Assembly (NCBI RefSeq): GCF_018687515.1
Contig: NZ_CP061294.1
Span: 930,001 to 994,000, forward strand
Direction: 5' to 3'
DNA from: Polynucleobacter sp. MWH-Spelu-300-X4
GTDB taxonomy: Bacteria > Pseudomonadota > Gammaproteobacteria > Burkholderiales > Burkholderiaceae
Length of the DNA stretch: 64,000 bases
Shown: in pieces, positions 47,292-53,672 of the stretch
Position numbering within the stretch: the stretch's first letter is position 1
How the letters are laid out: the number at the start of each line of letters is the position of its first letter
Notes under the pieces: generated by a model
The model's database searches: none
What the model saw: only the letters and a program-made list of their open reading frames with translations
What the model was told of the DNA's origin: nothing
Translations under genes and position numbers: made by a program

Positions 47292-47867
47292 ATGTCGGTC
47301 AATTTTGCCAAGAACCCAACTCTTCAAAGACTGCTCATGGTTCTGGTGTCTTTATCGCTTTACTTCATTTCCCTAGAAATAACTAAGCTATCCCCAGAAG
47401 TCCTTGTTCATGATGATTGGATTTATCTTATTTTTTTACCTGCTGGCAGCCGGCTTCTTAGCATCATGCTATTTGGTATTTGGGGAGCTATCGGGGACTG
47501 CATCGCTTTATTCATCTCAGCCATCAATATCTTACCGGATCAAAATATCAGCATCTGGCTAACTTTTGCGACAAGTAGTAGCCTAGCTAGCTTAATTGCC
47601 ATTAGATTTACGATGAAACAATTGAGTATTCATCTAGATTTAAGCAATCTCAAATATTGGCAGATTCCCGTTTTATCCGTGATCAGCAACCTCATTCATG
47701 CTTTTGTTACCCAATTCACACTGAGTTATTTTTTACAAAAACATTACAGTTTTTATATCAGAGATAGCCTTGCCATGGCACTTGGAGATTTTTTAGGAAC
47801 CATGCTAATTATTGGCGTTGCAACTGTAGGCATTAAATTATTTAAAGCAGAGAAAACTAACTTCTAA
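47292..47867 (+). CDS. Uncharacterised integral membrane protein
   Basis: A 191-aa protein with about five or six transmembrane segments. The stretch WIYLIFLPAGSRLLSIMLFGIWGAIGDCIALF recalls the N-terminal part of MASE1 sensor domains or small-molecule S-component-like proteins, but the resemblance is weak. No catalytic domain follows. AGAAGGA lies 14 nt before the ATG. Divergent from the MarR-like regulator. The function is unknown. Confidence 0.6.
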   Translation: MSVNFAKNPTLQRLLMVLVSLSLYFISLEITKLSPEVLVHDDWIYLIFLPAGSRLLSIMLFGIWGAIGDCIALFISAINILPDQNISIWLTFATSSSLASLIAIRFTMKQLSIHLDLSNLKYWQIPVLSVISNLIHAFVTQFTLSYFLQKHYSFYIRDSLAMALGDFLGTMLIIGVATVGIKLFKAEKTNF

Positions 47868-49372: not shown

Positions 49373-50188
49373 ATGTCATTAATTTCCGCCACAACTAGAG
49401 CTGCACTCGAGGAGTTACTTGAAACTTCTATAAGACCAGTTCCCCATCATTGGTTGAGCGTTCGCTATGGCGTTCATATTATTGGCCATATTCAGCCAGA
49501 TTATGTGCCCATTATTGAGCGTTATATTGAAGAAACGGAAAGTAATGCACTTGTTCGTTTTGGCGAGCATCTTCAATTAGAAAAATTACCACCTAGCCTA
49601 TTAAGCCAAGAATTAAGAGATTTAGCAGAGTTTCTCAAAAAAGAAGGCTTAGTTCCTGGTTGGCGAGGTGAAGAATTTGCTTGGGTTGATGAACTAGGCC
49701 ATGAGCGTTTTAGAGTTGAACGAGCTATTTTTAGATCTTTAGGCTTTCATAGCAGAGCCTGTCATATCAATGGCTATACCCAAAATAAAGAAATCTGGCT
49801 GGGAAAACGTAGCATGACCAAAGCCACAGACCCCAACATGTTGGATAACATTGCCGCAGGCGGCATTAGTGCTGATGAAACGCCACAACAATGTGCTCTT
49901 CGAGAGCTTTGGGAAGAATCCGGCATTCCAGAAAATTTAGCTAGATTGATTGACCCGATTGGCGTTATCCATGTCAAACGTGTTGTAGAGCCCAAAGGCC
50001 TACACGATGAGAGCCTGTTTATTTTCGACCTAGAACTTCCTGATGACTTTAATCCTCAAAATAATGATGGTGAAGTTGAAGGGTTTATACGCCTACCTTT
50101 CGCAAGCGCTGCAGAATTAATCTTAGAAGGTGCGCTCACCCCCGATGCTGCAGCTGTGACTGCTGATTTCTTGCTAAGAAAAGCCTAA
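49373..50188 (+). CDS. Nudix hydrolase with DUF4743 (TNR3-type, thiamine-linked)
   Basis: A 271-aa protein: N-terminal DUF4743 region (about 1-120) then a Nudix domain with a perfect box GGISADETPQQCALRELWEESGI. This architecture matches the yeast TNR3 N-terminal domain and its relatives, reported to hydrolyse damaged thiamine diphosphate forms such as oxythiamine diphosphate. The next genes (PnuC/PnuT transporter, NadR-like kinase) and the downstream TPP riboswitch support a thiamine role. The stop is 9 nt before the transporter ATG. Confidence 0.88.
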   Translation: MSLISATTRAALEELLETSIRPVPHHWLSVRYGVHIIGHIQPDYVPIIERYIEETESNALVRFGEHLQLEKLPPSLLSQELRDLAEFLKKEGLVPGWRGEEFAWVDELGHERFRVERAIFRSLGFHSRACHINGYTQNKEIWLGKRSMTKATDPNMLDNIAAGGISADETPQQCALRELWEESGIPENLARLIDPIGVIHVKRVVEPKGLHDESLFIFDLELPDDFNPQNNDGEVEGFIRLPFASAAELILEGALTPDAAAVTADFLLRKA

Positions 50189-50197
50189 TCAGTTCTA

Positions 50198-50761
50198 ATG
50201 AATTTAGAAATCATTGCTTTTGTACTGTCATTGTTTTGCGTGGCATTAAATGCTAAAGGCCATGTTCTAACGTGGCCCTTAGCAATTATCAGCTCCTTAG
50301 CCTATAGCTGGGTGTTTCAAGATGCCAAGCTATTTGGTGATGCCGCCCTTCAATTAGTTTTTGTCGTTTTAGCCATCTATGGCTGGGTTAAATGGTTTAA
50401 AAAAACAACTTCATCTATAGCGTTTAGCCACATCAAAGCCAAATCAATCACTTATATGGCCATAGCTTGCTTGGCTTTATTCGTATTGATTAAATTTGCT
50501 TTAATTCAATACACCAGCTCAGACGTACCAACCATCGATGCATTCTTAACAGCAGCTAGTTTGGTGGCAACTTATATGAGCGCTCATAAGTGGATTGAGA
50601 ATTGGCTAGTTTGGGCTTTCGTTGATGTTATTTATATTGGGCTTTATATATTTAAGGGCTTGTATTTAACAGCTGTGCTGTATGGGCTATTTATTGCTTT
50701 ATGTGTTTTAGGCTGGCACCAATGGTCAAAGCTGATGGGCTCAGAAGGTAACAAAGCATGA
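50198..50761 (+). CDS. pnuT: PnuC/PnuT family vitamin transporter (predicted thiamine)
   Basis: A 187-aa inner-membrane protein with about seven helices of the PnuC fold (FCVALNAKGHVLTWPLAIISSLAYSWVFQDAKLFGDAALQLVFVVLAIYGWVKW; WIENWLVWAFVDVIYIGLYIFKGLYLTAVLYGLFIALCVLGWHQW). PnuC family members carry nicotinamide riboside, riboflavin or thiamine by facilitated diffusion with phosphorylation trapping. Thiamine is favoured by the TPP-riboswitch neighbour. It overlaps the kinase gene by 4 nt. Confidence 0.85.
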   Translation: MNLEIIAFVLSLFCVALNAKGHVLTWPLAIISSLAYSWVFQDAKLFGDAALQLVFVVLAIYGWVKWFKKTTSSIAFSHIKAKSITYMAIACLALFVLIKFALIQYTSSDVPTIDAFLTAASLVATYMSAHKWIENWLVWAFVDVIYIGLYIFKGLYLTAVLYGLFIALCVLGWHQWSKLMGSEGNKA

Positions 50762-51330
50762 GCCACATTATCAAAGTTGCCATTATTGGTGCCGAATGTA
50801 CTGGCAAGACAACCTTAGCTCAAAATTTAACTGCTCTGTATCAAACAAAATATCCTGCAGCGTTTGTGCCTGAGGCACTACGTTTATTTGTGGAGAATGA
50901 AAAAAGAACGCCTAAAGCAGAAGAACAAGCATTCATCGCCCTTGAACAAAAGAATCTTGAAAAAGAACTGGCTTCGAAATTAATTCTTGAGCATGAGAAC
51001 CCTGAGCTTGTATTTTTATTTTGCGACACAACACCTTTGCTAACAGGTATTTATAGCGAAGTTGTGTTTGGGGCTACCGACCAGGGTGTTAAGAAAATTG
51101 CCCAAAATCATGACTACGATTTAACACTTTTCACGCAAATTGATTTTCCATGGAAAAGCGATGGTATCCAACGCGATGGCCCACTCGCTCAAGCCAAGGT
51201 TCATTACAGAATCCAGGCTAAATTAGATAGCCTCAAGATTCCCTATCGCATAGTGAGCGGTGGTGTTCAAAAACGCCTTCAAATAACAGAAAAATACATC
51301 CAAGAACTGCTGACATCACTCGAATACTAA
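50758..51330 (+). CDS. NadR-like P-loop kinase (predicted thiamine kinase)
   Basis: A 190-aa AAA_28 (NadR/Ttd14-type) P-loop protein. Walker A is IIGAECTGKTTLA; further motifs are FVPEALRLFVEN, FCDTTPLLTGIYSEVVFG and TQIDFPWKSDGIQRDGP. NadR kinases phosphorylate nicotinamide riboside, but the NMN adenylyltransferase domain is absent and the gene is coupled to a PnuT-type transporter beside a TPP riboswitch. The likely job is to trap imported thiamine (or its pyrimidine/thiazole) by phosphorylation. Nicotinamide riboside remains the main alternative. Confidence 0.8.
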   Translation: MSHIIKVAIIGAECTGKTTLAQNLTALYQTKYPAAFVPEALRLFVENEKRTPKAEEQAFIALEQKNLEKELASKLILEHENPELVFLFCDTTPLLTGIYSEVVFGATDQGVKKIAQNHDYDLTLFTQIDFPWKSDGIQRDGPLAQAKVHYRIQAKLDSLKIPYRIVSGGVQKRLQITEKYIQELLTSLEY

Positions 51331-51337
51331 AAGTATT

Positions 51338-51343
51338 TATAAT
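51338..51343 (+). promoter_or_regulatory. -10 element of the riboswitch/TonB-receptor transcript
   Basis: Perfect TATAAT 8 bp after the kinase stop and about 28 bp upstream of the riboswitch. No good -35 is seen at the normal distance. Inference that the receptor has its own promoter. Confidence 0.4.
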
Positions 51344-51370
51344 ATGACTATCTAGAAGTTTTAGATATTA

Positions 51371-51456
51371 GCTCGGGGTCCTGCATCTAGCCTTATCGGA
51401 TGTGGGTGAGAAATACCCGTTGAACCTGATCTCGATAATGCGAGCGCAGGGAAGCG
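51371..51456 (+). ncRNA. TPP riboswitch (THI element)
   Basis: The conserved blocks are present in order: CTCGGGGTCC, then GGTGAGAAATACCC, TTGAACCTGATCTCGATAATGCGAGCGCAGGGAAGC. This matches the THI-box core that binds thiamine diphosphate. It lies 50 nt upstream of the TonB-dependent receptor ATG. Confidence 0.96.
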
Positions 51457-51479
51457 TCCAAAATCGCATCCCAAACTCG

Positions 51480-51510
51480 CCATCGTTTAAATAAGGAGTA
51501 TTAACGATGG
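51480..51510 (+). promoter_or_regulatory. Start-codon-sequestering hairpin of the riboswitch expression platform
   Basis: Perfect 8-bp inverted repeat CCATCGTT (51480-51487) / AACGATGG (51503-51510). The AAGGAG ribosome-binding site lies in the 15-nt loop, and the ATG at 51507 is in the stem. It suggests translational shut-off when TPP is bound. Confidence 0.75.
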
Positions 51511-53672
51511 CTTATATGCCAAAACTAAACCGTATTGCAGGCGCTTGCGCCCTGCTATTTATCATCAACTCTCAAGTTTCTGCCGAAGAAGCCCAGTTAT
51601 CCCCCGTGGTGGTGACTGGTGAAAAAGGCACTGGTTATGTGGCAAAAAGTGCCATGATTGCAGGCCCTGGCGGTACTCAAGAAGTTAACTTAAAAGACTT
51701 ACCTGCATCAGTAACAGTTATTACACGTGATCTTTTAGACGATAAACAAGTAAAGGTTATGTCTGAAGCTGTTCGCTTAGATGCCTCAATTGGCGACTAC
51801 TATTCACCTGTTGGCTATTATGAAAATTTATATGTCCGTGGTTTTCAATTGGACCCAGCAACAAGTTTTAGAGTAAACGGTTTAACGGTTACCGGCGAAC
51901 AAAATTTCGCATTTGAAAATAAAGAACGTATGGAAATTCTTAAGGGTGTTAGCGCTCTCGAGGTAGGCGCAGCGTCACCTGGAGGAATCGTTAATTTTGT
52001 AACTAAGCGCCCTAAAGAAGTAACATCATTTACTGTCGGCACTGGTGAAAGAGGCACCGCCTATACCGCAGTTGATTACGGAACTTTTTTTGATGAGGCT
52101 AAAACCCTAGGTATTCGCATTAATGCAGCACATGAGAATATCAGGCCATTTGTTGCTGGCGCTGAAGGTAAACGAGATTTTGCAAGCATAGCTATCGATG
52201 CAAAAATAAGTAATCAAACTAAAGTTGAGCTTGATTTTGAGTATCAAAACAAAAGTGAAAGATCAGTTCCTTCTTTGATGATGTTGGGAGATGCCCCTAA
52301 TATGAGCTTTCCCAATGTGCCAGCGGATATCATGCTTGGACGCTATTCATGGGTACCGCCAACGGACATTATTTCAACCAATGCAAGCCTAAAAATTACT
52401 CATGAAATTGACAACTCACTGAAAGGATTTTTTAACTTAGGTCATAGTGAAGTAAAAATAAATGATCAGTCTCTTTATGCCTATGGGTGCACAGACTCCT
52501 CCTCTGTATGGCATATAAATTTCTGCTCCAATGGTAACTATGATGCTTATGACTTTAGAAGCTTAGGGGAAATAAGAAGAAACGATCAAATTCAAACCGG
52601 TCTAACAGGGAACCATCAGTGGTTAGGCATGAAACACTCTTGGACAATTGGAATTGATGAGTTAATTCGGTCTGTATACAAGGGAAATTCGATCTATTAC
52701 TGGGTTGGAACAGATAATTTAAGCCAGCCTTCTAACATTATGCCAACGCCAGCACCTGCAGGTACTGTTTATAAAATTCTTGATCACTCCCAATCAAGCA
52801 TATTCCTGAATGATCAAATAGACTTAAACAGCCAAGCAAAGTTATTTGCTGGTCTAAGAGCTATGCAAATGCGCCAAAAAGCATACGAAGTAACCACTGG
52901 AGATGCATATGCTGAACTAAACAAATGGTGGCTCTTGCCTCAAATTGGTTTAAGTTATGCACTAACTCCTCAAATAACTAACTATGTAAGTTACAGTAAA
53001 GGAGTTGAACCTGGAACTATTGCCTTATCTGACAGCTTTGTAAATCGAATAGTCATGCCTCCTAAACAAACAGAGCAATATGAAATAGGTAGCAAATTAT
53101 TGATTAACGCTGATTCGCTGTTGAGCTTTGCTCTTTTTCAAATGAGACGACCTAATGAGTTTTCTTTATACGATAGCGGCATACTCTACAAACTCTATCA
53201 AGAAGGCACGGTAACTAATCGTGGAGCAGAAATTTCACTGGCTCAAAAAGTTACTAATCGTCTAAATTTACTCGCTAGCGCCATGTATTTGAGAGCTGAT
53301 CAATCAGGCGCAGTCACTGACCCGACTCAAAATGGCAAACAAGCTATTGGCATCCCACACTGGAGAAGCATTGTTAACGCTGATTATTTGATACCTAACT
53401 ACGAACGCTTAAGTATTCAAGGTAGCTGGACTTATAGCTCAGGGAAGCCAATCGACATGCAAAACACAATGCAAGCGCCAAGTTACAACAAGTTTGATGC
53501 AGGCCTAAAGTATCTTGATAGAGTTGGTAAAGCCCAAGCTACTTATCGCATATTTGTAGAAAACATTTTTAATAAGTTCTATTGGCGAGATGTAAGTCAA
53601 AGCTTTGGCGCTAATATGCTTTACCCCGGAGCCCCAAGAATCATCAGAGCTACAGCCACTTTTGATTTTTAA
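51507..53672 (+). CDS. TonB-dependent outer-membrane receptor, predicted thiamine importer
   Basis: A 721-aa outer-membrane receptor. Signal peptide cleaved near residue 26 (SQVSA-EEA), a TonB-box-like LSPVVVTG at about 31-38, the plug domain (LPASVTVITRDLL; LYVRGFQLDP; MEILKGVSALEVGAASPGGIVNFVTKRP) and a 22-strand barrel ending in Phe (TATFDF). The plug resembles ferric siderophore receptors, but control by a TPP riboswitch points to thiamine or a thiamine precursor. AAGGAG precedes the ATG. Its stop abuts the convergent GNAT gene. Confidence 0.92.
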   Translation: MAYMPKLNRIAGACALLFIINSQVSAEEAQLSPVVVTGEKGTGYVAKSAMIAGPGGTQEVNLKDLPASVTVITRDLLDDKQVKVMSEAVRLDASIGDYYSPVGYYENLYVRGFQLDPATSFRVNGLTVTGEQNFAFENKERMEILKGVSALEVGAASPGGIVNFVTKRPKEVTSFTVGTGERGTAYTAVDYGTFFDEAKTLGIRINAAHENIRPFVAGAEGKRDFASIAIDAKISNQTKVELDFEYQNKSERSVPSLMMLGDAPNMSFPNVPADIMLGRYSWVPPTDIISTNASLKITHEIDNSLKGFFNLGHSEVKINDQSLYAYGCTDSSSVWHINFCSNGNYDAYDFRSLGEIRRNDQIQTGLTGNHQWLGMKHSWTIGIDELIRSVYKGNSIYYWVGTDNLSQPSNIMPTPAPAGTVYKILDHSQSSIFLNDQIDLNSQAKLFAGLRAMQMRQKAYEVTTGDAYAELNKWWLLPQIGLSYALTPQITNYVSYSKGVEPGTIALSDSFVNRIVMPPKQTEQYEIGSKLLINADSLLSFALFQMRRPNEFSLYDSGILYKLYQEGTVTNRGAEISLAQKVTNRLNLLASAMYLRADQSGAVTDPTQNGKQAIGIPHWRSIVNADYLIPNYERLSIQGSWTYSSGKPIDMQNTMQAPSYNKFDAGLKYLDRVGKAQATYRIFVENIFNKFYWRDVSQSFGANMLYPGAPRIIRATATFDF

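Follow-up and report, generated by a model that had tools for sequence, protein, structure and literature searches.

Polynucleobacter sp. MWH-Spelu-300-X4, a small freshwater bacterium whose complete genome is 1,785,745 bases long, carries four genes and a thiamine pyrophosphate (TPP) riboswitch side by side in a 64,000-nucleotide stretch of its sequence (contig NZ_CP061294.1, positions 930,001 to 994,000; we call this whole stretch the window and count positions from its first letter). One of the four genes encodes a small NadR-type kinase, which we read as a thiamine kinase. The features are:

49373-50188, + strand: Nudix hydrolase, possibly Tnr3/NUDT20-like (271 amino acids; NUDIX domain)
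50198-50761, + strand: PnuC-family inner-membrane transporter, read as PnuT (187 amino acids; PF04973 NMN_transporter)
50758-51330, + strand: stand-alone NadR-type P-loop kinase (RNK domain only), read as a thiamine kinase (190 amino acids; AAA_28)
51364-51469, + strand: TPP riboswitch aptamer, or THI element (RF00059)
51479-51511, + strand: proposed expression platform, hairpin GCCATCG/CGATGGC (minimum-energy fold and centroid)
51507-53672, + strand: TonB-dependent receptor, read as an outer-membrane thiamine receptor, OMthi/Omr1-like (721 amino acids; plug and barrel)

The first three genes are packed as in an operon, with 9 bases between the Nudix gene and pnuT and a 4-base overlap between pnuT and the kinase gene. 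The riboswitch lies 33 bases past the kinase stop and 37 bases ahead of the receptor start. Because it is 3' of the Nudix-pnuT-kinase trio and immediately 5' of the receptor gene, the receptor is, by position, its target. A preliminary description of this DNA had listed the Nudix hydrolase, the PnuC/PnuT transporter, the kinase, the riboswitch and the TonB receptor, and profile matches confirm all five at these positions. The aptamer scores 65.8 bits against RF00059 (gathering score 54.3) and covers model positions 1-105, so it is full-length, with outer P1 pairs that are partly non-standard; Rfam finds no second TPP riboswitch in the whole source genome. The receptor matches the TonB plug (50.5 bits) and barrel (122.2 bits) in Pfam, as well as TIGR01783, a siderophore-receptor subfamily model (277.8 bits, cut-off 223.5). 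The transporter matches PF04973 at 167.2 bits (cut-off 27.3), and it is from gene context that we read it as PnuT, a thiamine transporter.

The kinase has an RNK-type P-loop domain (AAA_28, PF13521; 101.1 bits in Pfam, cut-off 27), and its solved relatives by sequence, 9x6f and 1lw7, are both NadR-type. It aligns only to positions 164-318 of the 325 in the NadR model TIGR01526 (52.1 bits, equivalog cut-off 341.15), so that it lacks the NMN adenylyltransferase part, in agreement with the earlier claim. It has no match to thiamine pyrophosphokinase (TPK, PF04263) in a Pfam scan or to the thiamine kinase ThiK (TIGR02721) in an NCBIfam scan. A Walker A motif (GAECTGKT) lies at 50788-50811 (kinase residues 11-18) and an FCDTTP motif at 51019-51036 (residues 88-93). 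The closest known kinase domain is the RNK domain of NadR, as in E. coli, H. influenzae (1lw7) and L. lactis (the available part of PMC7221760); in an alignment, the Walker A motif and the positions E39, R42, DT, W132 and D135 are common to the window kinase and E. coli NadR.

The residue after DT is a different matter. The NadR proteins of E. coli and H. influenzae have D there, as do L007-L009, three NadR-like orphan kinases from the same GTDB family (L-numbers denote loci and G-numbers genomes, G000 being the source genome); 9x6f has N. One scan of genome contigs yielded 507 relatives of the kinase, and all figures given out of 80 refer to the best 80 of these. Their residue after DT is T in 51, S in 16, A in 7, G in 5 and C in 1; the window kinase has T. 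The D or N of the canonical examples is thus absent from the window kinase and from all 80 relatives, which we read as a sign that the kinase substrate may have changed. Unlike NadR, then, the window kinase stands alone, without an adenylyltransferase or DNA-binding domain, belongs to a set with T, S, A, G or C after DT, and is linked to thiamine genes. Its closest named relatives in the contig scan are from Polynucleobacter, and the 11 Polynucleobacter kinases in our tree form one clade (local support 0.992).

The same linkage recurs in other genomes. We fetched 6 kb or less on each side of each kinase gene and found pnuT within 500 bases of the kinase in 77/80 relatives. A TPP riboswitch lies within the fetched stretch in 46/80, bearing out the suggestion in the preliminary description to look for the kinase near such riboswitches elsewhere, and a receptor homologue is present in 46/80 loci. 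In 45 of the 46 riboswitch loci the riboswitch is no more than 400 bases from the receptor start (in the other, L016, the contig stops inside the receptor), while L057 has the receptor and no riboswitch in its short contig. Linkage of the kinase to both riboswitch and receptor recurs in several Burkholderiales genera and in Methylobacillus. Riboswitches in relatives were called with a loose sequence pattern; an Rfam check of 24 of the 80 loci agreed throughout (12/12 positives confirmed and 0/12 negatives matched). Given about 2 TPP riboswitches per genome of about 4.5 Mb, simple arithmetic puts the chance of one falling in a 12.5-kb stretch below 1%. The Nudix gene is linked to the cluster in 10/80 loci, every one from Polynucleobacter, and Nudix gene, pnuT, kinase and riboswitch were kept together in all 10 kinase-bearing Polynucleobacter contigs that we fetched. 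In a small control with stretches of about 1.5 kb per side (L012 left out), there was a TPP riboswitch at 0/7 other NadR-like kinase loci of the same GTDB family (L005-L011) and at 3/3 Polynucleobacter loci. This control set is of mixed kind, as L005 and L006 group in the tree with the new kinase family and not with the canonical kinases.

Within the genus, the kinase goes with the absence of thiamine synthesis genes. We searched for the kinase, thiC and thiE in each of 81 Polynucleobacter genomes and found the kinase in 8 (G000, G156, G203, G206, G230, G232, G241 and G257, where the match is a fragment of 22 residues at the end of a contig). thiC was unmatched in 13 genomes, thiE in 11 and both in 9: all 8 kinase bearers versus 1 of the 73 others (G274, which is 56% complete). 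Among the 67 genomes with completeness of at least 90% and contamination of at most 5%, the genomes without a detected thiE are the 6 kinase bearers and no others; thiC was unmatched in these 6 and in G228. The agreement between thiE and the kinase would arise by chance about 1 time in 100 million (1/C(67,6)) if the genomes were independent, which they are not, since the Polynucleobacter kinases form one clade. In this draw, each of the 7 complete kinase loci (L097-L103) has the kinase next to a riboswitch, and no riboswitch is seen in the stretch around the contig-edge piece (L104). Together with the linkage to pnuT and, in 46/80 loci, the nearby riboswitch, the unmatched thiC and thiE uphold the earlier proposal that this is a thiamine salvage locus.

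Which step of thiamine salvage is missing? ThiE joins the pyrimidine and thiazole moieties and is the usual source of thiamine monophosphate (TMP). Of 9 kinase bearers tested in the genus, 8 have ThiL, which converts TMP to TPP, above its cut-off (G000, G156, G203, G206, G127, G230, G232 and G241); the ninth, G257 (78% complete), has only weaker, paralogue-level matches. thiE was unmatched in these kinase bearers, with G127 outside the thiE search. TPK had no match in the source genome and 20 relatives, 3 of them kinase bearers (G156, G203 and G206), and ThiK stayed below its cut-off in all 14 genomes searched (11 kinase bearers among them), with G292 giving one weak partial match. The search for thiC, thiE or another kinase that the preliminary description had called for therefore left thiC, thiE and TPK unmatched, and ThiK without a hit above the cut-off, in the source genome. 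Because ThiL is kept without matches to ThiE, ThiK or TPK, the missing step is the conversion of thiamine to TMP. NadR-type kinases move one phosphate to a primary hydroxyl, for example that of nicotinamide riboside. The kinase is probably a thiamine kinase that supplies TMP to ThiL, and not a substitute for pyrophosphokinase.

We think it quite likely that the locus serves vitamin B1 salvage in a Polynucleobacter that has apparently stopped making thiamine, and that its kinase supplies ThiL with TMP. Thiamine would cross the outer membrane through the TonB receptor, whose expression TPP would lower via the leader riboswitch, and PnuT would equilibrate thiamine across the inner membrane. The kinase would then phosphorylate the hydroxyethyl group of thiamine to give TMP, thereby trapping it, and ThiL, which is encoded elsewhere in the genome, would complete TPP with a second phosphate. 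Oxidised or otherwise damaged thiamine diphosphates would probably be cleared by the Nudix enzyme.

The receptor leader suggests how TPP could act. A predicted hairpin pairs 51479-51485 with 51505-51511 and encloses the ribosome site AAGGAG (51493-51498), and the receptor start codon sits in its 3' arm. Both arms are invariant in all 10 aligned leaders (the window and 9 other loci, L016 left out) and the loop varies; with both arms invariant, there is no covariation evidence for the hairpin. By hand we also saw an alternative pairing of GATG...GTGAG (51399-51410, in the aptamer) with CTCGCCATC (51476-51484), which could form and free the receptor start site when TPP is absent. A pattern scan, which had fewer promoter-like sites than shuffled sequences and about as many terminator-like ones, gave none of the latter in the leader. 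It is reasonable to suppose that TPP represses translation of the receptor through this hairpin.

The alternative that survives best, though we consider it unlikely, is that the Pnu transporter and the kinase form a standard pair for salvaging nicotinamide riboside and lie beside a thiamine receptor by chance. PnuC and NadR are the classical pair for nicotinamide riboside salvage, the kinase is a homologue of the RNK domain of NadR, and the transporter passes the equivalog cut-off for the nicotinamide riboside transporter PnuC (TIGR01528; 67.4 bits, cut-off 42.45). However, chance proximity sits poorly with the repeated linkage to the TPP riboswitch and receptor described above, and with the failure to detect thiC or thiE in any of the 8 kinase bearers among the 81 genomes. 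Also, nadA was found in 15/15 genomes tested, including 11 kinase bearers, so loss of the nadA step does not explain the pattern of the kinase (our genome search for NAD genes covered nadA alone). Finally, a Pfam scan of 15 neighbours, taken from loci that for the most part have no riboswitch close by, showed no recognised NAD gene, with the neighbours annotated only in part; the preliminary description had named homologues found mainly with NAD salvage genes as evidence against its proposal.

Another possibility, which we regard as very unlikely, is that the cluster salvages a thiamine precursor or related compound (such as hydroxyethylthiazole or a thiamine derivative), which would also be the substrate of the kinase. 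The sequences do not fix the substrate of the receptor or the transporter, but precursors alone would be unusable in the 8 bearers in which ThiE was not found (ThiD, ThiG and ThiM were not searched for). Least likely of all is the role given in the preliminary description, that the kinase replaces TPK and converts thiamine directly to TPP: this fits the lack of a TPK match in the source genome, but it would leave the retained ThiL without a substrate, as ThiE was not found, and would require a second phosphate of an enzyme type that moves one.

Besides the profile match of the transporter, several observations weigh against our reading of the locus as thiamine salvage with a TMP-forming kinase. 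The riboswitch precedes the receptor only: the direct tie to thiamine claimed earlier stands, by position, for the receptor, and nothing shows that it extends to the upstream trio, which lies ahead of the riboswitch. The narrow ThiK model, which rose above its cut-off in just one of 14 control genomes, may overlook a divergent ThiK, and other kinases or uptake of TMP could also provide TMP. In the genus, the gain of the kinase and the loss of thiamine genes may be a single event. Furthermore, G221 (1.6 Mb) has 8 in-frame stops in thiC (C1:620626-621993) and 1 stop in thiE (C1:618256-618798), yet no kinase. We counted both of its genes as present, but it looks like a genome in which thiamine synthesis is decaying without the salvage kinase, so decay of the pathway is not always accompanied by the kinase.

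Likewise, the fetched stretch is free of TPP riboswitches in 34 of the 80 relatives, and two Comamonas loci (L063 and L074) lack both pnuT and the riboswitch there. Undibacterium accounts for 21 of the 34 (21 of the 25 loci of that genus). A whole-genome search of 15 genomes, 12 of them with riboswitch-less kinase loci, found TPP riboswitches in all 15; among those 12 there were two riboswitches in 11 genomes and one in 1 (L043 left out). We inspected 6 of the 26 TPP loci from this search: 3 precede a thiC-like frame and 3 a TonB receptor frame. These frames were identified by eye, except at L121, whose receptor frame aligns with the window receptor at 31% over 456 residues.

If the kinase makes TMP, the order of reactions is that of a known route. 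E. coli makes TPP from thiamine via TMP with the thiamine kinase ThiK (YcfN) and ThiL; the window kinase itself has no ThiK match. Transport and riboswitch control also have precedents. In Bacteroides (B. thetaiotaomicron BT2390 and BT2396-BT2397), the available part of one study describes TPP-controlled TonB receptors, PnuT with Tnr3, and an OMthi-pnuT-tnr3 operon (PMC5613172). The TPP riboswitch, TonB receptor and PnuT are common to that system and the window, and so, in name, is a Tnr3 component. There, Tnr3 is called a thiamine pyrophosphorylase (PMC5613172, in part), whereas here we find a separate NadR-type kinase, ThiL and no TPK match. In freshwater acI Actinobacteria, PnuC-like genes behind TPP riboswitches have likewise been interpreted as PnuT (PMC5301498, in part). 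The transport and riboswitch part of the locus is thus already known. A literature search of partial texts, with the Rodionov 2002 comparative study outside its reach, found no paper that assigns thiamine to a NadR-type kinase, and this assignment is apparently new.

More broadly, we find it fairly probable that a branch of NadR kinases across Burkholderiales and Methylophilaceae, paired with PnuT, has switched to thiamine and is an unrecognised thiamine kinase. With ThiL it would make up a third, non-homologous route beside ThiK-ThiL and TPK, and it would have let some Polynucleobacter drop thiamine synthesis. If so, it fills the missing kinase step in vitamin B1 salvage of freshwater and soil betaproteobacteria, and the NadR kinase family gains a substrate. 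Some annotations in the style of pnuC-nadR would really be thiamine genes, and the kinase would predict which free-living Polynucleobacter rely on other organisms for vitamin B1.

The part of the Nudix hydrolase is less firm than the preliminary description had it. The NUDIX domain is clear (57.5 bits, cut-off 21.1), and a pattern search places a complete Nudix box, G(x5)E(x7)REUxEExGU, at 49859-49927. But the N-terminal DUF4743, which we take to be the mark of the thiamine-linked Tnr3-type Nudix family, is a weak match (19.6 bits, below the cut-off of 25), which leaves the Tnr3-type assignment tentative. The closest solved relative by sequence is PDB 3dup (E = 9.9e-30). Oxo- and oxythiamine diphosphate are substrates of yeast and plant enzymes of the Tnr3 family, a role that genetics supports (the available part of PMC5158307). 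Compared with the Tnr3/NUDT20/YJR142W enzymes in that source, the window protein has the box and the sub-threshold DUF4743, and its activity is a prediction. A role in removing damaged thiamine diphosphates is plausible, though the claim is weakened by the sub-threshold match and by the restriction of the cluster link to Polynucleobacter.

Among the 15 scanned neighbours are a sigma-70 factor, a TonB receptor of another kind, a ChaN-like protein that binds haem and, from Noviherbaspirillum, a uracil phosphoribosyltransferase whose gene adjoins pnuT; there was no common partner among them. A large conserved protein by the kinase in Undibacterium (family F3) had looked like a receptor by its size and was rejected, as Pfam identifies it as the sigma-70 factor. 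A second, different TonB receptor (family F4; L031:2412-4658) lies upstream of pnuT and the kinase, one gene away, in Undibacterium loci. It occurs in 14 loci, 11 of them riboswitch-negative, and may be unrelated. In the window, the + strand at 47292-47867 encodes a 191-amino-acid protein that has no Pfam or NCBIfam match and looks membrane-like by eye. Across L015-L024 (L016 left out), the receptors are 35-63% identical to that of the window, versus 71-76% for the Nudix proteins; the Polynucleobacter receptors are thus the more variable, as if receptors had been exchanged.

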